Below are positions 1 to 27,997 of a stretch of 41,222 bases of DNA, piece after piece. Source of the DNA: an uncultured Candidatus Peregrinibacteria bacterium (GTDB taxonomy: Bacteria; Patescibacteriota; Gracilibacteria; UBA1369); contig CALMAI010000014.1 of NCBI GenBank assembly GCA_937858825.1, forward strand, positions 1 through 41,222. The letters run 5' to 3'. Every line of letters begins with the position of its first letter. The first letter of the stretch is position 1. A model generated the notes under the pieces. It was given only the letters and a program-made list of their open reading frames with translations, made no database searches and was not told where the DNA came from. The translations under genes were made by a program, and so were the position numbers.

Positions 1-1625
1 ACAACGTCATTCAAGATACATGCGTCGTTGTTGGTTGGGTTTGGGTTGGCGGTCAATGTAAAGCTGTCACCTTCGCTTACTGCTGTGTATTGGTAGCTAC
101 AAGTGTAGTGTGTTGTAAAGTTTGAGCTTGGAATCTGGTTACACTGTGGCTGAATAATTTGTGAATTTGGAATATTTGAGAAGTATCCGTCACCAGTTTC
201 TGACCAGGTAATTGTTTCTGGCTGAAGGTTCGATGAGTAGTTGACTTGTGGGTTGATGGTGATTGTTTCACCTGGTTGAACCGGTTTTGCGTAGTTCGCA
301 GTGAGGCTTAAACACATTCCACCTTCGTCTTCTGGAGGAATTGGGAACGATGCTTCACATCCAACTGGTTGATCATTTTGGTCCAAAGCGACTACCCGGA
401 CTACGGTGTTGGCATCCCCGCCGCTATACCATGTGCTGGTATTCAGGTCGATGAATGGGTTTCCGTTGAGAGGGGAGTTTTGGTCATCTTTGAACTCTCC
501 TTGTGGTTGAAGGTTGAGCATTCCAGTCCATCGGTACTTCAATGGGATTGATTGATTGGCTGGATTAAAGCTTGGAGTTACATTCAACTGCATTGGCTGG
601 TTTGGTTGGATGCCAGCCGGGTTGTTGGCGTTGTATGTGTTTCCACCTTGAGCGATTGTGAGGTCGAGACCGGTACAAACGGCTTCTGGTGGGGTTTCTG
701 GTTTTTTCCATGTTGTTCCAACAACACCGATTCTATACCAGTAGTACTGCTTCCCATCGTTGGTTTCTGTTCCTTCAACACCTGAAATGTTTGGAGGGTT
801 CATAGTACACCAGTTTCCATCAAAATCTTTTTGTGCTCCTGGTTGTCCATCGTTGGCACATGATGGAGCATCTCCATCATCGTCACTACTCTTTAAGAGG
901 GCAAGATCTCTGATAAGTGCTCTTGATGTTGTTGTGGCACTCCAAACTTCCTGAGGATTATCTTTTGATACAAGTTTTATATAAGCGCCCCAATATCCAT
1001 GAGATTTTCCGAGAGATGGATTTTGGCCCCAGAGCATTGGACGTCCTGTTTTACTTGAACTTTCTGCGAAATCCCATGTGGCTACACCTGTTGAGGCGTT
1101 GTATGAAATTTTTGTTGTTCCCCAATTGGAAACTGTTCCATTACATCCTGGTGTTTCAACATAGGTGTTTGGTCCGGTAGCTGTTCCACAAACAACATTG
1201 AACTTATCAGTATTTGCCAACGCGTCTGGTTCAAGGGTGATTTGGAATTTTGCCATATATGACTTGTACCAGAAATTATCTTCAACAGATGCATTGTGAT
1301 AGGTGTGGTTGTGTCGTGTGGTTGGTGCGTGGATGTTTTCAACTCCGTTTACGTTTTTGAGGGGATTGTCCTGAACGGTTGGAGGCTGAGGTTGATATTG
1401 ATTTGGATATTGAAGATGTTGTGTACATTGTCCGCTTCCACTAAAAACGTTAAACCACTGATTCGCCAAATCATTCACAACGGTCCCTTGTGGATTAAAA
1501 GGATGAATCGACAGTGCACATGTTGGAAATTGCAGTGCGCTGTTATAAGCTGCGTTGGCTGTCCCTGCTGTTAAAAGTGAAAGGACAAATGTAAGGAGAA
1601 TGAATTGTTTTTTTAGTTTAAGCAT
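1..1625 (-). CDS. Secreted protein of unknown function, 3' end beyond left edge
   Basis: A minus-strand frame is open from ATG 1625 to the window edge (541 codons plus two bases) with no stop, so the C-terminus is missing. The first 26 residues form a typical Sec signal peptide: a lysine-rich start (MLKLKKQ), a hydrophobic core (FILLTFVLSLLTAG) and an AxA-type cleavage site (TANA before AYN). The mature part is rich in Asn, Gln, Pro, Thr and paired cysteines. It has an acidic Asp stretch (SSDDDGDAPSC), and its later segments, which start like SLTANYAKPVQPGETITI, resemble the beta-sandwich modules of bacterial surface proteins. It lies 16 bases after the 49-residue membrane protein gene and closes the visible part of the giant-protein operon. 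I infer an exported or surface-attached protein. Neither the family nor the anchoring signal can be judged because the end is not present. Confidence 0.85.
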   Translation of the reverse strand, partial: MLKLKKQFILLTFVLSLLTAGTANAAYNSALQFPTCALSIHPFNPQGTVVNDLANQWFNVFSGSGQCTQHLQYPNQYQPQPPTVQDNPLKNVNGVENIHAPTTRHNHTYHNASVEDNFWYKSYMAKFQITLEPDALANTDKFNVVCGTATGPNTYVETPGCNGTVSNWGTTKISYNASTGVATWDFAESSSKTGRPMLWGQNPSLGKSHGYWGAYIKLVSKDNPQEVWSATTTSRALIRDLALLKSSDDDGDAPSCANDGQPGAQKDFDGNWCTMNPPNISGVEGTETNDGKQYYWYRIGVVGTTWKKPETPPEAVCTGLDLTIAQGGNTYNANNPAGIQPNQPMQLNVTPSFNPANQSIPLKYRWTGMLNLQPQGEFKDDQNSPLNGNPFIDLNTSTWYSGGDANTVVRVVALDQNDQPVGCEASFPIPPEDEGGMCLSLTANYAKPVQPGETITINPQVNYSSNLQPETITWSETGDGYFSNIPNSQIIQPQCNQIPSSNFTTHYTCSYQYTAVSEGDSFTLTANPNPTNNDACILNDV

Positions 1626-1641
1626 TTTGTGAAAGAAAATG

Positions 1642-1791
1642 TTATTCGTTAGCGCTGTCTGTTACTGCAGTTGATCCAACGCTTTCGTTGGGATTTGGAT
1701 TAGATCCGTTACTCAACTGAGTAAAAAGTATTACTACAATCGCGATGATCGCTATAACTGCAATAATGAGATGATTTTGTTTGAGCTTCAT
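1642..1791 (-). CDS. 49-residue single-span membrane microprotein
   Basis: A short frame from ATG 1791 to TAA 1642 encodes 49 residues. It starts MKLKQNHL, continues with one strongly hydrophobic span of about 16 residues (IIAVIAIIAIVVILF), and ends in a polar Asn/Ser/Pro/Thr-rich tail. Two positive lysines before the span suggest N-in, C-out orientation. It sits 11 bases after the giant-protein gene and 16 bases before the secreted-protein gene on the same strand, so it fills the gap between them exactly and is very likely translated. The hydrophobic run and the fit in the operon support it. I do not recognise a family. It could be a membrane tether or a small subunit for its neighbours, but that is inference only. 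Confidence 0.75.
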   Translation of the reverse strand: MKLKQNHLIIAVIAIIAIVVILFTQLSNGSNPNPNESVGSTAVTDSANE

Positions 1792-1802
1792 ATTTTTTAG
1801 GG

Positions 1803-4800
1803 TTATTCGTTACTATGTTCTTGACCTTCTTCCATGCCTTCTGAGGCGTTGGATCCAGGACCTACTTCATCAACAGATACTTCTCCTTTTGGTCCGCCAG
1901 ATGGTGGTTCTTCTTCGGGAGGTGTTTCTGGAGGTGGTGGAGTTTTCTTTGGTGGTGCGGCCTCTGGTCCAAGAGCGGCAGTAGCGCCGATTCCGATTGA
2001 GATGTCTTGTGTTCGGAAGCTGGTAACGAGTGATGAAGCGCTCTTGGCTCCGTAAACCCGCATGTTCCCGACCATTTGGTATGGTTCTGTTTCGTTAATG
2101 GCCATCAACTGTTCGTCGTAGAGTTTTGATGCGTTCAAACATCGTTCATAGACACCAGACTTAATGCTTCCGGTTCGGATTCCAATACGTACTCCATTTA
2201 CTTCAATGGTGTGGAAAGCAGCTCCGTCGACAACAACAAGTGTTCCTTCTTTGCCTTCCTGAGCGGCTCGCAGTTTTTGTACGAGTTCCTGGAATGATTT
2301 AACGGCCTCCTGTGCGCCTTCTGCCACTTGTGGTGGTTTGGTGGCATAGCACTCAACAATCTTATTAAATGCCTCTTCGCCAAGCGCGAGACCCAGGATT
2401 GGGTTGTCTCTGTTGGTTCCCATAAGAGCCAACTTGGTCGCGAGCGATGATGCCAGGAATTGTGATTGTTCAGGGAATTCTGTTGGGCTTTCTGCGTCGC
2501 GGATAATCAAAGCGATAGCTTTATCGATTGGGGGTTGTCCGGTTTCCAGAGCAGTCGCGTAGTCTTTTGCTACGAATAGTCGGTGATCTGGAATTTTTTC
2601 TCCTTCACCATGAGCAATGTTGAATCCACGTCGTCCAAAGACGCTTTGGGTTCCAACGGCTACATCGAGTCGAGCTCCAACTGGAATCTCTTCTGGATTG
2701 TCCAATGCCGCATCACGGATTGGTTTTACGAATGCTTCAGCAAGTTCTTCGGCTGGGATGTTATTTGGATTGTTCTGGGCGTTGCTGTGTTCTTTAAAGA
2801 ATGGAATGTAGATTGTGGTTTTCATCCATTGTAAACGTTGTCGAACAATCTGTTTCATGGCCAGCTTTCGTTGCTTCTCTGGAAGCTTTTCGTAGCGGGC
2901 TTTTTCATTGGCCATGCTCAAGTTGAAGAGCTCTTCCATGATGGCGTGAATTTGATCCGGATTTTCGTTCAGATCAGAATTTTCTTCGCTGATCATGTCG
3001 AAGATCTTCTTAATGTCTCCAGGGGACTTGTGAGGGTTGGTTGTGAGCAGTCGATATTCACGAGGATGTTTCTTCATGAATGCTTCAGCCTTCACGCGCA
3101 TTGCGTTAAGGTCCACTCCTTCAATATCGGCTTCTCCAATGTTTTGTCGGAGTTTTCGTCCTGACTCGGCCATTCGGTTGAACTTCTCACGTTGCTCACG
3201 AGCTTTGGCTGTTTCTGGAGTATCCTTGTCGAGGGTGTCGAACTGTCCGTATTCCGCACCAGCTTTCCATGCCAACATATTGGCCTGGCTGGTTTTTCCC
3301 CGATTTTTTCTTTCGAGTGAAACTGGGAACCGTTTTCGTTCGGTTTGATCCTGGGTTCGTGAATCCAGATAGTAATCACTTTCGGCTATGATTGATTCTT
3401 GTGTTCGGTAGTCCTGATCACTGATGGTGATAATTGAGTGTTTGACGTTCCCATCTTTCGGACGAGGATAGTAGTAGTCTGCACGCTTGATTACCATGTT
3501 TGGACTCTTACTGGCAGAGATAAGTACCTCTCCATTTTTAAGGATGATTCCAGCCTTTTCCTGCATAGCAGGGTCAATGTAGAGTTGCCAGTTTCCAGCT
3601 TGTTGTACTTCCAGTTTGTACATTTTCTCGGCTGGTACTTTGGTGAGTTTGAGCCCACGTTTGGCGAGCTCTTTTTGGTATTCATTAAACATCTTATCGA
3701 TCTGGGCATCTTCTGCTTCTCCAGCTTCGATTTTGGCTTCACCAATCTCTTTCTTAACTGGTTGAAGTCCAGTTTCAGAGGTTCCAACGAGGGATTCGCT
3801 TAATGTAGTGAAGGTGACTGTTGAATAACCAGCCTTGCCAGCTTCTGATTTCAGTTTTCTTCGATATTCGTCAGCCTGCTTATTCATCTTTTCTTCTGCG
3901 CCTTGAGTAAGCTGTTCGGTTGTGTGGCTCGATTTTTGGAAAATTTTGAGCTCGGATCCTATTGCAAATGCAAAGGCAATACCTGGAACAACTGTTGGTT
4001 CTCCTTTTTTATCGATGATAACTCCGACTCCTCCTCCAATGGCAGTGAGTTCCATTGGGCTGATAGTTTCTTTTCGGGCAACTTCATCTTCAATGATTTT
4101 TCTAAAATGTTTGTTGTAAGCTTCAACCAGCTGCTCATCGCTCCATTGCATGTTGTATTGGAGTTGCGCGAACATTGGTCCATGTGGAGATGGGAGCTGT
4201 CGTAGAAGAATGGCTTTTGAAGCATTATCCGGAGCCTTCTCAACGTTTTTGTAAACGCTATCGTTGAGGTGTTCTTTGAGGGTATTTTGATACTCTTTTT
4301 CAAGGTTTTTATGCCAGATCATGGCAACACCAGGTCCGGCAAAGAGACCACTCTTAATTGATGCTCCAACAACACCTCCAACGGTAAGTGTTGGTTCCCA
4401 TTCATTGTCAGCATCAACTGGGATCTCCCAAGATACACCAAGTCCACCCATAACACCGGCGACTGGTCCACCATTGTCCAGATCTACACCAACTTTTCCG
4501 CCAACACCTCCTACGAGAGAGACGTTTTTGGCTACTTCAACGCTTCCTCCAATACCGGCACGGAAGGCGAGTGCATTGTCTTGTGGGCTGTATTCAGCTC
4601 CAAATGCGAGGTAGAGGGATCCTTTTTCTCCTCCAGCAATTTTAACCGGAACAGTCACTCCAATAGATTGGACACCTTTTCCTTTGAAATTTCTGGTGAA
4701 GTTGAGGTCAAAGAAAGCAATTAACTGACTGTTAACATGCTTTTCGATTTCCTGTAAATCTTCATTGGTTGCTCCGTGTTGAGCTGCATAAACCTGCATC

Positions 4801-7712
4801 TCTCGGAGGTTTGGATCGCTTGACCATTTGAAGTTTTCCGGTACTTCTTCACGAACTTCTCCCTGACTTCCGGCCATTTCCACCAGGAATCCAAGTCGAA
4901 TAAGTTCGCGTTGCATTTTGCTCAACTGTTGACCCTTTCCAAGGTCTCCAATTTTTAGCTTTTCAGCAACTTTGTTTACGACATCTTTGTCGTTAATATC
5001 AATATCTTTCCCAACGCCAAGAAGTTGAAGGTTTTTGGTTCGTTGTTTTGATTCTGGTTCTGCAATGAGTGCAGCGATACCAGTATGAAGGTAGAGATTG
5101 AGCTCGTTTTGCAGTTTCTTTGTGTCGAGCTCTTCACCGGTTTTGCATCGATCAGAAATAATCTTATATGCGGTTGCAGAAGAGGTGGTTTTGTCGAGTT
5201 TGCTCAACTGAGAATCGGCATCACTATGGTCGAATGTGAAGAGTCCGCCGGAAATTACTTCTCCATCTTCTTTGGTCGCGTCATAGTAGTCTTGTCCACG
5301 TCCATTAAGACTTCCTCCATCTGCCGGAGGGAAAATTGACTTGAGGACATCTTCTCCTTTATATGCTGGAGCCTCTTTTGAAGGATTCAGATTTCGAACT
5401 GCCTGGATCAATACTGCTGTACTTTTCCAGAATTCTGAAAGGTTCAAATAGATAGCTTTGTATGCTTTTGGATTTTCGATGTCGTTGTATTTTTCAAGCT
5501 CTTCGGCATTTAAATTTGGGTAACGGTATGCCATGTCAGCTCTCCAGTATTCATCAATAAAATCATCAACATCTCCAGGGGTTCCATCAATTGTTTTGTA
5601 AAGGACACCGTTGTCGTTCAATTCGTTGAGGATGTTTTCCATTCCAATCTCATTTGGACCTTCGACAAGTTTGTCATCGTCTCCAAGCAGGTTGAAAACT
5701 TTTGTTTTGTAAACAGAAAGTGGGACCTTGCTATAAGGGTATTGTTGGAGTGCTAGTTTGAGCTGTCCAAATCCGCCTTTCTCACTTTCCCACATTTCAT
5801 CCCACTTAGCTTTATCGTCCAGAATTTTATCCATCTTTTCTGAAATCTGGTACATTTCCGGATCTCCTTCTTTCCCATAAATGTATTTACGATTTTCACG
5901 AATAGCTTTTTTCTCAGCGTCAGTATATTTAAGGCTTTCCATGGTTTTATCACGGAACTGACGTGTTTCTGTGGTTGGCTTAAATTCGCTTACAGCTTTA
6001 ATGATTTCTACTGCAGCTCGACCAAGCTGGTTCAGCTCTCTCGTTTTTTTGTCAGCTTGTCGGTACGCTTTGATTTCATCGGCACTCATATCGTCATGCC
6101 ACTTTTTGCCTTCCTTTAGATTTTCTTTGGCTTTTTGGCGTGCATCGACAATTCGATCAATGTCATCCTGCATATCATCGTAGTCACCCTTTTTGCCATC
6201 AATGGTTGTATAAAGGGTCGCATACTTATTGAACTCTTCAATAAGATAACTCAACTCGATTCCATTTTTTCCAACGGTGTAATCCATGACTTTTCGTAGA
6301 CCGTCACGAATTCTTTCTTCCGGGATTTTATCAAATGGTTTGTTTTTGAATGCCTGTTTAATGCGGGCAACGTTCAAGAGATCGCCTTCGGCCCATTCTT
6401 TGTTCCAGAGTTTTGCGTCTCCGGCAAGGTCACGAATTTTAGCGTCTGGTACGAATTTTTCGTCGTCCCAAAGTTTGTCTTTATTTTTTTTGTATTGGCT
6501 GTCGAGTCGTCTTTTTTCTTTTTCTGTTCCGGCCTTTGTTCTCTTTTCAGCTGCTTCACGTTCTTTTTTAATAGCTTCATCTGTTTCTTTTTTCTGAACG
6601 GCTTCTGTTTTTGGAGGAAGAACAATCCAATAGTTTCCTTCTTCATCGGCAAACTTTTTAAGTTCAACTGCATAGGTTTGTGATGTGTAGCCATGTTCTT
6701 TAATCTGTGCGTGACTTTTCATTACGTCCGAAGCTACAGCAACCCATGAGCCTTTCATTTGTTCGGCAGTGAGTTTGTGTGGCTGGTTTTCAATGAATGC
6801 GTACCCACTTGGAAGTTGTGGTCGGGTTGCTTGTTTTTCACGAATTTCAATAGTTGCGCCTTCCATTGGGCGAACAGTGTATCCGTCAAAAATTTTAGCA
6901 ACCTGGCCATTGTCAAATTTCCATTTTCCGTCTTTGAGGGTGGCAACTTTTGGTTTCTTTATATACTTATCGGTTACCATTAATTGTGCTCCTTCTGTTG
7001 CGTTTGGAAAGAGGGTGTTCAATGTGACGCTTTGTGTCTGCTTCCATTTTTCGGCAGCGTTTCCTTTAAAAGTTACAAGACCGGTGTTCCGATCCCAATA
7101 AACTGAACGACTTTTTTCTGCCTCTTCGGCAGTTTTCTTTAGTTGTTCTTTCTGTGCGATCTTTTCTTCATCAACTTCTACAGCAAGTTCAGCGTTCTTT
7201 TTTGGTGCCTTTTCTTCTTTCTTTGGTTCTTCATCGATTTTTACTCCGGCTTTTTCTCCGGCAAGCATTTCTGCGATACCTTTGTCTCCTTCAAGCTTGA
7301 TTGCGCTGCCATCCATTTCTGTAAAGGCAAAGCGCCATTCATTACCATATTTCTTGATGCTGATAGCTTTGTTGTTAGCGCTAAGGGTTGCAAAGAAGCT
7401 TTCAATTTTTTTACCTGGATACTCTTTTTGGAATGATTCGCGAATTTGAGTAATCAACTGTTGTTTTGTCTCTGGTTTTCCATCAATCTTCGCTGCCAGC
7501 TTTTCCATGCTTGCTTCAACGGTCTTTTCCATTTTGAGAGGAGTGTCCAGTTTTTCTTTTGGGTTTTCAAACTTTTCTCCCAAAATTTCTTCTCGTTTTT
7601 TTGGTCCTTTTTGCGCTTCTGGAGCTTTTTCACCGGCTTCCAAAGCTAGAAAAGTAAACCTTTTTTCAAAAAGGAGTTCAGGAGTGAGATGTTTTTTGCA
7701 TGAGTTCTTCAT
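1803..7712 (-). CDS. Giant protein of unknown function, 1969 residues
   Basis: One uninterrupted frame. ATG 7712 is preferred: an earlier in-frame start at 7805 would overlap the upstream gene (ending at 7753) and adds a segment unlike protein. There is no signal peptide. Residues 1-430 are charged and helical with Lys/Glu-rich linkers. Residues about 434-596 and 636-794 are two diverged copies of one module, both with the motif Y-[TK]-T-I-D-G-x-x-G-D-x-D-D. Residues about 998-1134 are Gly-rich alternating beta sequence (SLYLAFGAEYS, SLVGGVGGKVGVDLDNGG), with a shorter similar stretch further on. The last 60 residues are Pro- and Glu-rich. I recognise no catalytic motif and no known family. 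It stands second in an operon with a small helical protein, a membrane microprotein and a secreted protein, so a structural or cell-surface role is a guess. Without a signal peptide its location is open. Confidence 0.9.
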   Translation of the reverse strand: MKNSCKKHLTPELLFEKRFTFLALEAGEKAPEAQKGPKKREEILGEKFENPKEKLDTPLKMEKTVEASMEKLAAKIDGKPETKQQLITQIRESFQKEYPGKKIESFFATLSANNKAISIKKYGNEWRFAFTEMDGSAIKLEGDKGIAEMLAGEKAGVKIDEEPKKEEKAPKKNAELAVEVDEEKIAQKEQLKKTAEEAEKSRSVYWDRNTGLVTFKGNAAEKWKQTQSVTLNTLFPNATEGAQLMVTDKYIKKPKVATLKDGKWKFDNGQVAKIFDGYTVRPMEGATIEIREKQATRPQLPSGYAFIENQPHKLTAEQMKGSWVAVASDVMKSHAQIKEHGYTSQTYAVELKKFADEEGNYWIVLPPKTEAVQKKETDEAIKKEREAAEKRTKAGTEKEKRRLDSQYKKNKDKLWDDEKFVPDAKIRDLAGDAKLWNKEWAEGDLLNVARIKQAFKNKPFDKIPEERIRDGLRKVMDYTVGKNGIELSYLIEEFNKYATLYTTIDGKKGDYDDMQDDIDRIVDARQKAKENLKEGKKWHDDMSADEIKAYRQADKKTRELNQLGRAAVEIIKAVSEFKPTTETRQFRDKTMESLKYTDAEKKAIRENRKYIYGKEGDPEMYQISEKMDKILDDKAKWDEMWESEKGGFGQLKLALQQYPYSKVPLSVYKTKVFNLLGDDDKLVEGPNEIGMENILNELNDNGVLYKTIDGTPGDVDDFIDEYWRADMAYRYPNLNAEELEKYNDIENPKAYKAIYLNLSEFWKSTAVLIQAVRNLNPSKEAPAYKGEDVLKSIFPPADGGSLNGRGQDYYDATKEDGEVISGGLFTFDHSDADSQLSKLDKTTSSATAYKIISDRCKTGEELDTKKLQNELNLYLHTGIAALIAEPESKQRTKNLQLLGVGKDIDINDKDVVNKVAEKLKIGDLGKGQQLSKMQRELIRLGFLVEMAGSQGEVREEVPENFKWSSDPNLREMQVYAAQHGATNEDLQEIEKHVNSQLIAFFDLNFTRNFKGKGVQSIGVTVPVKIAGGEKGSLYLAFGAEYSPQDNALAFRAGIGGSVEVAKNVSLVGGVGGKVGVDLDNGGPVAGVMGGLGVSWEIPVDADNEWEPTLTVGGVVGASIKSGLFAGPGVAMIWHKNLEKEYQNTLKEHLNDSVYKNVEKAPDNASKAILLRQLPSPHGPMFAQLQYNMQWSDEQLVEAYNKHFRKIIEDEVARKETISPMELTAIGGGVGVIIDKKGEPTVVPGIAFAFAIGSELKIFQKSSHTTEQLTQGAEEKMNKQADEYRRKLKSEAGKAGYSTVTFTTLSESLVGTSETGLQPVKKEIGEAKIEAGEAEDAQIDKMFNEYQKELAKRGLKLTKVPAEKMYKLEVQQAGNWQLYIDPAMQEKAGIILKNGEVLISASKSPNMVIKRADYYYPRPKDGNVKHSIITISDQDYRTQESIIAESDYYLDSRTQDQTERKRFPVSLERKNRGKTSQANMLAWKAGAEYGQFDTLDKDTPETAKAREQREKFNRMAESGRKLRQNIGEADIEGVDLNAMRVKAEAFMKKHPREYRLLTTNPHKSPGDIKKIFDMISEENSDLNENPDQIHAIMEELFNLSMANEKARYEKLPEKQRKLAMKQIVRQRLQWMKTTIYIPFFKEHSNAQNNPNNIPAEELAEAFVKPIRDAALDNPEEIPVGARLDVAVGTQSVFGRRGFNIAHGEGEKIPDHRLFVAKDYATALETGQPPIDKAIALIIRDAESPTEFPEQSQFLASSLATKLALMGTNRDNPILGLALGEEAFNKIVECYATKPPQVAEGAQEAVKSFQELVQKLRAAQEGKEGTLVVVDGAAFHTIEVNGVRIGIRTGSIKSGVYERCLNASKLYDEQLMAINETEPYQMVGNMRVYGAKSASSLVTSFRTQDISIGIGATAALGPEAAPPKKTPPPPETPPEEEPPSGGPKGEVSVDEVGPGSNASEGMEEGQEHSNE
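5331..5807 (-). repeat. Second copy of the internal module in the giant protein
   Basis: Codons for residues about 636-794 of the giant protein. This copy aligns with residues 434-596 at its start (KWDEMW against KLWNKEW), in its middle (YKTIDGTPGDVDDF against YTTIDGKKGDYDDM) and at its end (AVLIQAVRNLNPS against AVEIIKAVSEFKPT). The similarity is at protein level; the DNA has diverged. Confidence 0.7.
5925..6413 (-). repeat. First copy of the internal module in the giant protein
   Basis: Codons for residues about 434-596 of the giant protein, the first of two diverged copies of a roughly 160-residue module. The shared core is Y-[TK]-T-I-D-G followed by G-D-x-D-D. A linker of about 40 charged residues separates the copies. 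Confidence 0.7.
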
Positions 7713-7752
7713 GGGAGATTTTTTATTTTTGTTTTTTTGTGTGAGGAAAGTT

Positions 7753-8247
7753 CTATGCCAGGTTGTTGGCTTGGCGGATCTCTTCCAGAAGAGATGCCAG
7801 ATCACTGCGTGCTGTTTGAATTGTTTCTTGTCGTTTACTCATAAGTGTTTTGTCGAGTGCTGATTCTGCAGGGAGTGAGAATGGTTTAAGGAAATCTTCT
7901 AATCCAATCTCTTTTTCTCCGACTTTTTTCCCTTCATAGAAGTGGAGAATTCCCTGAACTATGGCAGTAAGGCTACAGTTTTTTCCTTCCATATATTTCC
8001 AGAGATCGTCGATAGTTTTTCCTTCCTGAAGATATTTTTCCAATGATGCTTTAATTTTATTGGCGTATCGTTCCTGCTCTTCTGAGTCGTTTGGGTAGGC
8101 TTTTTCTGCTAATGTGCGAATATTTGTTTCAGCATCAGACTGAAATTCTGTCTGTGCATTCACACGTTCCTTGATTTGCTCTTCAGCCTGTTTGGCCGCT
8201 TCTACAAGGCTTTCAGGTTGTCGAGATCCAACATTGTCTTTCGCCAT
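7753..8247 (-). CDS. Small helical protein of unknown function, 164 residues
   Basis: ATG 8247 to TAG 7753. The protein is hydrophilic and predicted helical throughout, with Glu/Lys/Gln-rich stretches (AAKQAEEQIKERVNAQ near the start, ALDKTLMSKRQETIQTARSD near the end) and no signal peptide, membrane span or metal motif. It is the first gene of the giant-protein operon, 40 bases before the chosen start of the giant gene. A clear sigma-70-type promoter stands just upstream. I recognise no family. A cytoplasmic partner or chaperone of the giant protein would fit the layout but is only a guess. Confidence 0.85.
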   Translation of the reverse strand: MAKDNVGSRQPESLVEAAKQAEEQIKERVNAQTEFQSDAETNIRTLAEKAYPNDSEEQERYANKIKASLEKYLQEGKTIDDLWKYMEGKNCSLTAIVQGILHFYEGKKVGEKEIGLEDFLKPFSLPAESALDKTLMSKRQETIQTARSDLASLLEEIRQANNLA

Positions 8248-8279
8248 AGGTATGTTTTTGATTTCAAATTAATCATAAA

Positions 8280-8308
8280 ATTATATCAAATTTTGGCAAG
8301 TTGGGCAA
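8280..8308 (-). promoter_or_regulatory. Promoter of the giant-protein operon
   Basis: Read on the minus strand, a -35 box TTGCCC (8303-8308), a 17-base spacer and a perfect -10 box TATAAT (8280-8285) lie about 30 bases before the ATG at 8247. This is a textbook sigma-70-type arrangement. Its -35 box is 2 bases away from the -35 box of the opposing promoter. Confidence 0.75.
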
Positions 8309-8365: not shown

Positions 8366-9058
8366 ATGAAAGATTTTCAATTGATTGTGAATTTTAAGAC
8401 TTATGACAATGCGACAGGGAATTATGCATTGGAATTAGCAAAAATTCATGAAAAAGTGGCGCAGGAGACGGGAGTTGGAATTGCCATTGCCGTGCAGGCG
8501 GTGGATCTTCGACATGTTGCTGAAGAGGTGAGTATTCCGGTACTGGCTCAACATTTCGATTTTGTAAGAAATGGTGTTCATACAGGACATGTGACAGCTC
8601 AGGCATTGAAAGATTCCGGGGCGTATGGAACGCTTTTAAATCATGCTGAGCGGCGAATTGACCTGGATGATATTGAGGAATCAGTGGATTTGGCCCGACA
8701 GTTGGGACTTTTTACAATTGTATGCGCCGATACACCTTATACGGGGAAAGCAGTGGCGGCACTCAATCCTCATATGGTTGCCGTTGAGCCTCCGGAGCTG
8801 ATTGGCGGTGATGTTTCTGTTTGTACGGCGAATCCTCAAATTCTTATGGATGCTGTGGCGATGATTGATAATGCACCGGTTGTTATTGGCGCAGGCATCA
8901 AGACAAAAGAGGATGTAGCCCATGCTATAAGACATGGGGCTTCCGCTGTGCTTGTTGCATCTGGTGTTATTCGATCGATGGATCCGGAGCAGACTTTGCG
9001 GGAATTGGCACAAGGCGTTATTGAAGGCCAAAAAGGCGCGGTTGAGCATATGCTTTAA
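8366..9058 (+). CDS. tpiA: Triosephosphate isomerase, archaeal type
   Basis: Interconverts dihydroxyacetone phosphate and glyceraldehyde 3-phosphate in glycolysis (cytoplasm). At 230 residues it has the short length of archaeal enzymes; the usual bacterial form is about 250. The catalytic residues appear as Lys11 (VNFKTY), His93 (LLNHAERR) and Glu141 (VAVEPPELIGG). The VEPPELIG block, SHTGHV-like segment (VHTGHV) and GAGIKTKEDV phosphate-binding loop are hallmarks of the archaeal subfamily such as Pyrococcus TIM. It is the first plus-strand gene after a divergent promoter pair, 45 bases before hpf, which has its own promoter. GpmI, a later glycolytic enzyme, is also in the window. Function is sure; archaeal origin is inferred from motif likeness. 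Confidence 0.93.
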   Translation: MKDFQLIVNFKTYDNATGNYALELAKIHEKVAQETGVGIAIAVQAVDLRHVAEEVSIPVLAQHFDFVRNGVHTGHVTAQALKDSGAYGTLLNHAERRIDLDDIEESVDLARQLGLFTIVCADTPYTGKAVAALNPHMVAVEPPELIGGDVSVCTANPQILMDAVAMIDNAPVVIGAGIKTKEDVAHAIRHGASAVLVASGVIRSMDPEQTLRELAQGVIEGQKGAVEHML

Positions 9059-21993: not shown

Positions 21994-23379
21994 CTAAAAA
22001 TTAAGATAAATGACTATAAGGCTGAGCAAGAATACCGGAGTGATGACAAGGCTGGCAACCTCATTCCGTTTGAAGAAGTTGATTTTAAGGCTTAATGCTG
22101 AGTGTAAGAGGAAAACTGTGGCAAGGAAATATTTAAGGAAGGCACTGCGGTAAATGTAAAACACGCCTGGAATGGTGAAATCACCCAGCTCTTTCGATGT
22201 TGTGTAGATTGAAAGGAAATAGTAAATGAGGTAGAACGCCAGAAGCCAACCGGTAAAAGAGAGAACCTGCTGCCCCAGCTTTTCTACAGGGGTGAGTTGT
22301 GCAGAAGCTTTTCGTTCCATTTTGATTCTCTTTTTTTCTGCGGCGAGCTCTTTTTTCAGCTTTTTTCTTTGGTTCCACAGATTTTTTATTCCTGCCCGGG
22401 CCTGGTTTTTAAATTCAGGGTCCGGTGCCTGAAAATAGAGAACAATGTAGTGTTTCATCTGGGCATTCACATTTTGGATTTGTTGTTTGATGCTCAGCAT
22501 TTTTTCGGTCTCTGTGGTGATTCCCAGAATTGGACTGACAATGGAATCGAAAATGCGATAGTAGAGTGGGGGATTTTCATTCTGAATAATGTGTTCTTCT
22601 CTCCATTGGCGCATGGCGTCGGTGACGCTCATGTTGGATTTGGATTTTCCACGCTTGAGTTCCATCATCATACTTTTGGCTTCTACAACCATGTTGGTGC
22701 GATCGGCCATGTGCTCTGATTCGTGGAGGAATATTTCTTCTTTTTGAATAAAATGAAGAAGGTCTTCGGTGGTTTTGCGGATGTAATCCAGGTTGGTACT
22801 GTTTTTGATTCGAAGAATTTTGTCGACTCTTTGTCGGATCTTTTCTTTGGTGGCAGGGGACATGTTCTGCTCATATTTATCGAGCATCTCTTTTACTTTC
22901 CCCAATACAAAATCGATTTGTTGCTGGAGGACGGCCTGTTTTTTTTCGAACTCTTTCAAGTCTTTTTCATCGGCACTTTCTTTCTCTTGTGTGGCAAGGA
23001 GTTCTTCCTCTAGTTGTTGATGAAGATGGTATGCCCCTTTTTTTCGTTCTTTTTCTTTTTGGGCTTCGGTGAGATTGTTGGGAATAACATACTCAATTTC
23101 AAACTCGTACTCTTCTAAAAGTCGTTTGTAAGCGTTGTATTCGTCTTCGGCCTGAATGGTTCCAGCGACGCGCTTCTGGTTTTTATCAAGACCCGCAAAC
23201 TCAAAAACCGGCAAGGTGCTCTCACTGGTGGCCTCGTTTTCGGGAATTTCTTCAATGGATACAATTGAAAACTCTAACTCTCCCAACTCTTTTCGGGCAC
23301 TTGCTTCATCGGGAGAACTAATCGTCCCTTGTAATTGTTGGTTCGAATTGTTGACAACGGTATACCGAAATTTTGGCAT
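21994..23379 (-). CDS. Membrane protein with two PilC/GspF-like N-terminal modules
   Basis: 461 residues. Residues 2-46 (KFRYTVVNNSNQQLQGTI, ARKELGELEFSIVSIEEI) and 57-99 (FEFAGLDKNQKRVAGTIQA, YKRLLEEYEFEIEYV) both follow the pattern of the small N-terminal cap of PilC/GspF, the inner-membrane platform of type IV pilus and type II secretion systems. A long charged coiled-coil region (about 105-365) comes next, then about four membrane spans at the C-terminus (for example LSFTGWLLAFYLIYYFL, FLKYFLATVFLLHSALSL, ASLVITPVFLLSLIVIYL). The two helical domains of true PilC are not seen. A role near a pilus or secretion machine is an inference supported by the prepilin peptidase elsewhere in the window. 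It lies between pyrG and the lgt-like gene. Confidence 0.75.
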   Translation of the reverse strand: MPKFRYTVVNNSNQQLQGTISSPDEASARKELGELEFSIVSIEEIPENEATSESTLPVFEFAGLDKNQKRVAGTIQAEDEYNAYKRLLEEYEFEIEYVIPNNLTEAQKEKERKKGAYHLHQQLEEELLATQEKESADEKDLKEFEKKQAVLQQQIDFVLGKVKEMLDKYEQNMSPATKEKIRQRVDKILRIKNSTNLDYIRKTTEDLLHFIQKEEIFLHESEHMADRTNMVVEAKSMMMELKRGKSKSNMSVTDAMRQWREEHIIQNENPPLYYRIFDSIVSPILGITTETEKMLSIKQQIQNVNAQMKHYIVLYFQAPDPEFKNQARAGIKNLWNQRKKLKKELAAEKKRIKMERKASAQLTPVEKLGQQVLSFTGWLLAFYLIYYFLSIYTTSKELGDFTIPGVFYIYRSAFLKYFLATVFLLHSALSLKINFFKRNEVASLVITPVFLLSLIVIYLNF

Positions 23380-26062: not shown

Positions 26063-27997
26063 TTACTCTTTCTTTTTTCTGCGGAGGATAAGTAATCCAA
26101 GTGCTGATAGAAGACCTACAAGTTGTAGATTTATTTCACGTTGAATTGAGGTAGTGGAGATGTTACATCCACCACTTTCTGATGAAGATGGCTGATTTTC
26201 GTATTTTAAGAGTTCTGCTTCAGTCCATTGAGCTTCTCCTCCGGCGTTTAGAATTGCCAACTCGATGGTTTTACCATTTGGTAATTCTAAAAAGTTTATG
26301 GTTTTACCTTCGTGCTGCGTGTTTTTGTAATAGAAGGATTCTTCTTGAGTGAAATTGCTTATTGTGAATTTTGTGCCCAGGGGTCCAAGGTGTAAGTTTG
26401 ACCCGTTTCTTCCTACTGGAATGACGATTTCATCAACATAGTGAGATGAGTTCTTGCCAGGGTGAAATAGAGTGAGATCATAGTCGGCTTTTCGCTCTTT
26501 AACAACTGTTTTAGCGCCACTAATGTAGATGGCTTCACCTTCTCCAATTGCAGTTAATATATCAGTGGTAACACCATTTTCGTTCATGAAAGAGTAGACG
26601 CAACCAGAACTACTGTAAGTATTTGTGAGGTAAACAGGATCATTGGTGAGCCGATTTTCACAATTTTTTATTTCACAGGATGGTCCAATTGTTTCTATTT
26701 TTATTGGACATTCTTCCATCATGCTTCCACCTTCTCCGCCAGCTCCACCCATGCCACCAGTTTCCATACCACCTGCTCCACCCATGCCACCTGCACCGCC
26801 TGATCCTCCAACTCCTCCCATACCACCGGTTCCACCAGTGCCTCCGGTACCTCCAGAACCACCAGTCCCACTCATACAGTCAGAAGCACAGCTGACAGAG
26901 TCCTCTCCATCGAGAGTGTCGCAGACCGCATCTCCACAGAAAGACCCCTGCACGGTATGTGAAACACACATGGTGTCACAGTAAGTACATTGACTATTAT
27001 AAGCTGCAGTACAAGGGGTATTGGTGTTAGACATTCCGTCATCACACTGTTCTGTTCCTTCCGGATTTCCATCACCGCAAACAGGTGCTTGAGGCACCTT
27101 TTTTGCCCACATGATTTGGTATTTGCCACCAATTTGTTCTGTGTACCAAAGCCCACCATTTGAGTCTAATCTAGGTGCATCAATAAAGTTGCCATTATTA
27201 ATTGTTTGAGCAGTAGGAATGTTTATGTCCACACCCATTGACCCCATGGCAGTACCATTCCATGAATTTACTGTCACAACACCTCCCGGACCTCTAAATA
27301 ATATCTCATTTCCATTCACAAAGAAGTCAGATTCGCTAATCGTGACGCTGCTAGCCCCAGGCACTTCAGAATAGCTCGTAAGTGCGGGACGAGATAATCG
27401 AACTATGTCAAAATTTCCATTTGCTGAATTCCATCTCGTAGAAAAAAGCGTATTTGCATCCGCACAGGTTGGAAGTGTGCCACCGCTTGTAAATAATCCT
27501 GGAACATCTGCACAACTAGACGGTTGAGTTAAAAACCCATTCCATGTGCAATAAATAGCTTTCCCATTTTCAGCATAGAAATATTGCCCATCAGAAACTA
27601 CTGCATTCGTATCAGGATACTGAGAAGTAGTAAATTGGCTTGGAACACTCCAATTCTGTCCGCCATCAGTACTATTTACGTAGAAAATATCATAATTACC
27701 GAGGCGATCAGATGAAATAAGGACGTCAATCGCATTACCATTAATTTCAATAACATTAACAGCTTCATTTGCATTGATATCAGAAAAAGGCAAAGTTTGC
27801 GGTGCCTGCAAAGGCTCAATTGCCTCCGCATTCTGAGTTGTCAAAGTTGGCGCAACAAGGGCACTAGCAACCAAAGCTGCCTTTCCAAGATCATTTCTCA
27901 GTTTTGAAATCTGCTTCCCCAAAAAAGTTGAGGAGCTCACGGATTCAACATGGTTTTTATTTTTTGATCTTTCTGGATTTGAAGAAGAAAGAGACAT
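26063..27997 (-). CDS. Surface protein with Asp-box, Cys-rich module, Gly-rich linker and MYXO-CTERM-like tail
   Basis: 644 residues. A long charged N-region precedes a hydrophobic signal core (about 40-52) and a cleavage-like NAEA at 56-59. The first half has beta-propeller character with an Asp-box-like STDGGQNW (109-116). Next comes a Cys-rich CGDG..EQCDDG module (307-374) of the DUF4215 type, with further Cys pairs. Residues 377-424 are a run of Gly-Gly-x repeats. After a beta domain (430-600) the tail has GGCN, a hydrophobic stretch (LVGLLSALGLLIL) and RRKKKE, a three-part sorting signal like MYXO-CTERM. This order is typical of myxobacterial surface proteins. I infer a cell-surface protein trimmed by a sortase-like or rhomboid-like protease. 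It has its own promoter. Confidence 0.8.
   Translation of the reverse strand: MSLSSSNPERSKNKNHVESVSSSTFLGKQISKLRNDLGKAALVASALVAPTLTTQNAEAIEPLQAPQTLPFSDINANEAVNVIEINGNAIDVLISSDRLGNYDIFYVNSTDGGQNWSVPSQFTTSQYPDTNAVVSDGQYFYAENGKAIYCTWNGFLTQPSSCADVPGLFTSGGTLPTCADANTLFSTRWNSANGNFDIVRLSRPALTSYSEVPGASSVTISESDFFVNGNEILFRGPGGVVTVNSWNGTAMGSMGVDINIPTAQTINNGNFIDAPRLDSNGGLWYTEQIGGKYQIMWAKKVPQAPVCGDGNPEGTEQCDDGMSNTNTPCTAAYNSQCTYCDTMCVSHTVQGSFCGDAVCDTLDGEDSVSCASDCMSGTGGSGGTGGTGGTGGMGGVGGSGGAGGMGGAGGMETGGMGGAGGEGGSMMEECPIKIETIGPSCEIKNCENRLTNDPVYLTNTYSSSGCVYSFMNENGVTTDILTAIGEGEAIYISGAKTVVKERKADYDLTLFHPGKNSSHYVDEIVIPVGRNGSNLHLGPLGTKFTISNFTQEESFYYKNTQHEGKTINFLELPNGKTIELAILNAGGEAQWTEAELLKYENQPSSSESGGCNISTTSIQREINLQLVGLLSALGLLILRRKKKE
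26726..26869 (-). repeat. Gly-Gly-x coding repeat
   Basis: About sixteen consecutive triplets of the form Gly-Gly-(Ser/Thr/Met/Ala/Val/Glu) encode the flexible linker (residues 377-424) of the surface protein. The DNA repeat unit is about 9 bases long and imperfect, so copy number may vary between strains. Confidence 0.8.

Follow-up and report, generated by a model that had tools for sequence, protein, structure and literature searches.

Matched C-terminal tails and a shared N-terminal motif in a giant-protein locus of Peregrinibacteria point to a possible unrecognised sorting or docking of proteins at the cell surface

Peregrinibacteria encode many huge proteins of unknown function (PMC11573180), and giant membrane or surface proteins have been reported from the related CPR predator Vampirococcus lugosii (PMC8080830). 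How large proteins are moved and how partner cells are attached in ultra-small CPR bacteria is an open question, and the giants are uncharacterised (PMC11573180). The available part of the account of Peribacteria describes large Cys-rich extracellular proteins with a signal peptide that are thought to serve attachment (PMC4736985). The locus presented here pairs a giant protein lacking a Sec signal with a secreted giant, and the latter (2.0% Cys over its family) fits these Peribacteria proteins, which come from the same candidate phylum; in the available part of that account no paired Sec-less giant, matched tails, N-terminal motif or location between tpiA and holA is described (PMC4736985). 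The giants of Vampirococcus and Peregrinibacteria are likewise without assigned function and have been proposed to act in host recognition (PMC8080830, PMC11573180), but those of Vampirococcus are predicted membrane proteins, whereas the present ones have no strong transmembrane segment, and no conserved locus is described there. In the open-access papers searched we found no description of the locus, the matched tails or the N-terminal motif, which does not prove that none exists.

The locus between tpiA and holA

The window, i.e. the whole stretch of 41,222 nucleotides that was analysed, is contig C14 of a 1.3-Mb Ca. Peregrinibacteria genome (G000, the window's own genome; GTDB family f1). 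A public relative, Ca. Peregrinibacteria HKST-UBA20, encodes a giant that is 97% identical. All four open reading frames proposed in the sequence-only reading are present on the reverse strand at the positions given here, next to a divergent tpiA:

8366..9058, + strand: tpiA (triosephosphate isomerase), conserved divergent neighbour (family match, synteny)
8272..8308, - strand: promoter-like sites 5' of the operon (consensus scan; 2 found against 1.9 expected by chance)
8247-7753, - strand: helical protein of 164 aa (open reading frame), putative standalone version of the giants' first domain, family f1 only, all-helical in AF2
ATG 7712 to 1803, - strand: giant of 1969 aa (open reading frame), no Sec signal, no strong transmembrane segment
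7617..7682, - strand: N-terminal motif of the giant, PELLFEKRFTFLALEAGEKAPE (motif profile)
4305..4685, - strand: Gly-rich alternating (strand-like) stretch of the giant, aa 1010-1136, resembling amphipathic beta-strands
2103..3035, - strand: conserved C-terminal domain of the giant, aa 1560-1870, with invariant R1815, C1858 and N1860 (family alignment)
1806..1955, - strand: Pro-rich linker and C-terminal tail of the giant, ending ..GQEHSNE (sequence)
1791-1642, - strand: single-pass membrane protein of 49 aa (open reading frame), N-in/C-out by the positive-inside rule, tail ..TDSANE
1625 to 3, - strand: 5' part of the secreted giant, 541 aa, with a Sec signal peptide; the frame is still open at base 3

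None of the four proteins matches a Pfam or NCBIfam family above cut-off, so that their description as unrecognised stands, and the intergenic gaps of 40, 11 and 16 nt (in the order 164-aa protein, giant, 49-aa protein, secreted giant) make a single operon plausible, as had been proposed. An alternative GTG start upstream of the ATG at 7712 would extend the giant to 2000 aa. The strong promoter of the earlier reading did not hold up, since the promoter-like sites do not exceed the number expected by chance; in the best of them (8308-8280) a TG precedes TATAAT. Nor does the argument from cost in a compact genome carry over: 66 of the 351 frames in a 393-kb sample of genome G009 have at least 500 aa, and with long genes this common cost by itself is no argument. 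Two further reverse-strand proteins of the window, of 644 aa (26063-27997) and 461 aa (21994-23379), have no Pfam match at E 0.001.

The gene order is conserved, with two nearly constant members and two variable ones. Homologues of the giant were found in 14 of 59 related genomes by protein search and in 65 of the 89 genomes of its order with a profile of the C-terminal half; outside the order a single genome in a class sample of 288 has one. This homologue, of about 3,225 aa, is located on G070:C8 and is followed by a protein of 1,566 aa with a hydrophobic segment near its start, in a region where parts are read as N. Over the 61 loci inspected, tpiA is divergent to the giant within 900 bp in 32 of the 34 loci that have it on the same contig (the two exceptions are a gap of 1,063 bp and a mis-picked frame whose true giant start lies 66 bp from tpiA), and in 45 of 47 loci the secreted gene lies no more than 900 bp 3' of the giant in the same orientation. 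The next gene beyond the secreted giant is usually holA. The neighbours are thus kept with the giant, where the sequence-only reading had taken a lack of such conservation as evidence against itself. In G013 and in some genomes of family f13, tpiA and holA stand next to each other and the giant is missing, which indicates that the module can be lost; in f13, g42, a different, TM-anchored protein of 467-471 aa sits between the two genes, and in G015 the giant is followed directly by holA, the secreted gene being absent. The block between tpiA and holA hence holds the giant together with a second giant that is Sec-secreted and Cys-rich, to which a small membrane protein of transmembrane or lipoprotein type is added in some genomes. 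As to the order of all four genes, the pair of giant and secreted giant is kept order-wide, but the 164-aa protein is found in f1 alone and the small protein is often absent.

A profile of the 164-aa protein matches the first domain of three giants (E 3.9e-5, 1e-4 and 4e-4), and in two genomes the protein also bears the giant's N-terminal motif. Its AF2 model is all-helical at moderate confidence (pLDDT 68) and matches no PDB fold with an E-value below 3. The protein is best seen, from these profile matches, as a standalone version of the giant's first domain that would lie outside the core of the module, because it is seen in GTDB family f1 only and would duplicate a domain that the giant has itself.

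The giants of the order have about 1,480-3,540 aa and hydrophobic segments that are at most borderline. Tested as a Sec-exported adhesin the giant fails, its hydropathy maximum (12 residues) being 1.07 versus 2.2-2.7 for the secreted partners. One giant homologue has a match to OMP_b-brl (PF13505) at E 0.41, and the Gly-rich stretch shows strand-like alternation; an AF2 model of aa 905-1470 built from two near-identical input sequences was unusable (pLDDT 35) and did not confirm the strand-like stretch. A PDB profile search with the giant family gave nothing significant, and phage records held no match for the giant.

The secreted gene is cut in the window, which starts at a contig end. Extension to the left, as had been advised, located its missing 3' part (643 aa) at G000:C36:2074-4005 beside holA, with the C-terminal end NTPPALRDILNLSQTEVAR (..NLSQTEVAR). 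Complete homologues have about 1,000-2,250 aa, a Sec signal peptide (by hydropathy), Cys-rich repeats (by eye) and a conserved C-terminal part, with no C-terminal anchor. A PDB profile search with this family returned nothing significant, an Ig-like match (Big_1/Invasin_D3) was obtained for one of seven homologues, and a profile search of viral contigs found no relative. In G053 (L030 7532-12799) the secreted giant is spread over three frames, either through a frameshift in the draft genome or as a decaying gene.

Matched tails of the giant and the small membrane protein

The small protein measures 47-178 aa across genomes and is absent from many of them. Two types occur, a single-pass protein with N-terminal positive charges, whose C-terminus is expected to lie outside, and a lipoprotein, marked by a lipobox and present in six genomes; in family f7 an extra domain of extracellular type can be seen by eye. 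Within a genome, the giant and the transmembrane small protein agree in their last 5-8 residues, and these residues differ between genomes. Giant and small protein end in NPDQSG/NPDQSG in G009, ATPDDI/ATPADI in G010, AAGRR/AAGRR in G053, GTGDL/GTGSL in G314 and EHSNE/DSANE in the window, and in G315 the match extends over 18 residues.

The comparison covered 12 pairs of the transmembrane and six of the lipoprotein type, from genomes that are mostly draft MAGs and with several giants cut by contig ends; phylogeny was handled by permutation and by noting differing tails within one family. For the 12 transmembrane-type pairs the BLOSUM62 sum over the last six residues was 177; shuffled pairings averaged -10 (sd 26), and none of 50,000 scored as high. 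The last residue is identical in 10 of these pairs, and with G315 removed no match was seen in an internal control segment, which spans residues 9-16 counted from the end (p 0.08). The six lipoprotein-type pairs gave no significant tail match (p about 0.2), nor did G316 show one.

The agreement lies in the peptide. In G009 the giant's tail is encoded by aac cct gac caa tcc ggc and that of the small protein by aat ccg gat cag tct ggt, i.e. with synonymous differences, and the DNA 3' of the two stop codons is unrelated, which argues that selection acts on the peptide and led us to reject DNA duplication as the source of the identity. Within family f7, five genomes have five different matched tails, indicating repeated joint change. 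As judged from these comparisons, the C-terminal peptide of the giant and the small protein is under joint selection, and the membrane protein is functionally tied to the giant by tails that change together.

The pairing is also specific within genomes. NPDQSG at the very end is found in exactly two proteins of G009 and AAGRR in exactly two of G053, in both cases the giant and the small protein. Among 4,818 ORF ends examined in G009 the small-protein tail is the closest to that of the giant, and the outcome was always the same in the four genomes that have a small protein and were examined in part, with a thin margin over the next ORF end in the window's genome (13 vs 12). In three genomes that lack the small gene the giant's tail does not recur at the end of a second protein, from which it follows that tail sharing is not essential.

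An N-terminal motif on large proteins

Across the order the giants begin with a basic stretch and a core of the form [LF]-x-x-K-E-x-R-[LF]-[VI]-[FY] (consensus FKENRLVF), followed by a Pro/Glu-rich linker. A six-frame search of ten genomes with a 23-column profile found the same motif in unrelated large proteins besides the giants. All 12 non-giant matches read at E <= 0.05 lie directly after a start codon; three weaker matches do not. With a second profile, run against the 288 class genomes, 34 genomes from within the order and 17 from outside it had matches, and the 16 new loci read, six of these outside the order, were all N-terminal. Both searches combined thus place 28 of 28 inspected matches (E <= 0.05) at protein N-termini, the N-terminal 45 residues making up 12.6% of coding residues. 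In the 393-kb sample of G009, which had been excluded from the model, the three best matches, to proteins of 515-1,653 aa, were likewise all at the N-terminus, and in a phylum sample of 380 genomes matches were confined to this GTDB class.

The motif does not resemble a Sec signal, its hydropathy maximum averaging 0.56 over 27 motif N-termini versus 2.2-2.7 for Sec signals, and none of 20 carriers has a TM helix. An amphipathic helix explains it poorly (mean z 0.45). Most carriers have no Pfam domain; the others show phage lysozyme with GDSL lipase, GDSL, GGDEF, or WG with choline-binding repeats. Their Cys content is 0.20-0.21%, against a comparison value of 0.83%, which fits export; set against other large soluble proteins of G009 it is only weakly lower (0.21%; p about 0.04, n = 3), too weak a difference for Cys exclusion to serve as proof of export.

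Carriers adjoin each other in G025, G009 and G044. On G025:C6 (L245 4325-15679) three adjacent large genes of 2,093, 360 and 1,325 aa each start with the motif, and on G044:C47 (L249 4595-8937) carriers of 384 and 1,070 aa are adjacent, with a gene nearby that by eye is lytic-transglycosylase-like. A carrier at G025:C6:253500-258500 (L165 1351-3900), without a Sec signal, combines phage-tail-lysozyme and GDSL lipase domains and looks cell-wall-degrading. In G000 (C19, L243 9785-19664), G009 and G010 a carrier of 1,270-1,340 aa lies beside a multi-TM protein that is VirB6-like by eye, together with three more unrecognised proteins and near purL/ssb/rpsF-like genes; Pfam finds nothing convincing there and gives no support to a T4SS neighbourhood for these carriers.

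Readings of the module and comparison with known systems

The shared tag and the copied tail point to an unrecognised sorting or docking of proteins at the cell surface, and together they argue that the giant is sorted, possibly outward. Our preferred reading, held tentatively and at somewhat less than an even chance, is an order-wide surface module of two co-operating giants with docking through the tail and targeting through the N-terminal motif. The motif would steer the giant by a non-Sec route to or across the membrane. Since the C-terminus of the small protein is predicted to face outward, the partner of its tail should be outside and the giant is probably exposed there too. The shared tail would then dock outside, in a receptor pocket for which the secreted giant is the best candidate, with the giant itself as an alternative, and the small protein would hold the assembly at the membrane through the same plug-in peptide as the giant. 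Tails and pocket would be forced to change jointly in each species, a joint change that is seen for the tails, and the likely purpose would be attachment to, or action on, a partner cell. We infer the localisation, the tail receptor and the motif reader from this arrangement. Of the trans-envelope or surface apparatus first suggested for the operon, the conserved unit that combines a Sec-less giant with a tiny membrane protein and an exported large one remains, while the 164-aa protein drops out of the core.

The main rival stays close to that trans-envelope idea and is, in our view, serious though somewhat unlikely. It holds that the giant is inside, where the N-terminal motif, acting in docking or chaperone binding, anchors it near the membrane; the secreted giant is outside, and the shared tail is a cue that one cytoplasmic factor recognises in both proteins, prior to membrane insertion of the small one. 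Such a scaffold fits giants that lack a Sec signal and whose hydrophobic segments are borderline at best. DnaK binds basic-hydrophobic peptides, to which the motif is similar in composition, and one motif carrier has a GGDEF domain, which is usually cytoplasmic. Against it, the N-terminal positive charges of the single-pass type and the six lipoproteins imply that the small-protein tails end outside, and carriers with domains that act extracellularly (lysozyme-GDSL; WG and choline-binding repeats) bear the motif without a Sec signal. The evidence on export is thus mixed, the lysozyme-bearing carrier favouring it and the GGDEF-bearing one not.

It is distinctly unlikely that the shared tail serves as a signal for processing or turnover by way of a tail-specific protease or adaptor, with the small protein as decoy, regulator or co-substrate. 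Tails that are short, exactly C-terminal, species-specific and placed after flexible linkers would suit such a signal, but the module has no protease, and a general protease would hardly be expected to recognise a peptide that, in the two genomes searched, stands at the end of these two proteins only. The tmRNA (ssrA) tags of eight genomes are different peptides (e.g. ..APVAA in G000, ..LAPAVA in G053), which also removes tmRNA as a source of the tails. An LPXTG with TM segment and positive tail was found at none of the C-termini of giants, small proteins or secreted proteins.

We consider it very doubtful that the locus is a large adhesin with a partner in one operon and that the motif is the conserved start of one big protein family instead of a signal. 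The 164-aa protein shares the giants' first domain and, in two genomes, the motif, and both large extracellular proteins (PMC4736985, in its available part) and many huge proteins (PMC11573180) are known in Peregrinibacteria; yet the carriers do not otherwise form one family (their Pfam matches, if any, are GDSL, lysozyme, GGDEF or WG), and what comes after the motif is a low-complexity linker and no common domain. That the tail similarity is a functionless by-product of DNA duplication, gene-end signals or amino-acid composition, as the Ser/Pro/Gly-rich linkers before both tails and the longer match in G315 (18 aa) might suggest, is extremely improbable and largely refuted by codons that differ at most positions and unrelated sequence past the stops, with the cross-genome permutation and the internal control segment speaking against composition and the five differing matched tails of f7 against the idea as a whole.

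A broader reading, possible and yet rather doubtful, is a previously unrecognised class-wide targeting in which a KENRLVF-type N-terminal peptide would export or localise large soluble proteins, while the giant would dock by a species-diversifying plug shared with its anchor. Besides the window's order, at least some families elsewhere in the class would use such targeting, and the giant encoded beside tpiA would be the cargo retained most widely. The motif would mark candidate targeted proteins across the class and could be tried as a fusion tag, and with the co-changing tails a receptor can be sought among a few proteins of a single operon; both are testable outside the uncultured host.

Short shared peptides on unrelated cargo are likewise the principle of Sec/Tat signals, YSIRK-G/S, LPXTG sortase signals, the T9SS C-terminal domain and the type III N-terminal signal. 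The present elements differ from Sec in an N-terminal motif without a hydrophobic core, from LPXTG in a tail without a following TM segment and from T9SS in a tail that is no conserved domain. In encapsulin cargo-loading peptides and polyketide-synthase docking domains a short C-terminal tail sets partner specificity and diverges between species, and the likeness to the tails described here lies in just this short, partner-specific and species-divergent C-terminal peptide. The tpiA-holA locus differs in that it has no shell or synthase and in that its tail is shared by two products of the same operon, of which one is a membrane anchor.
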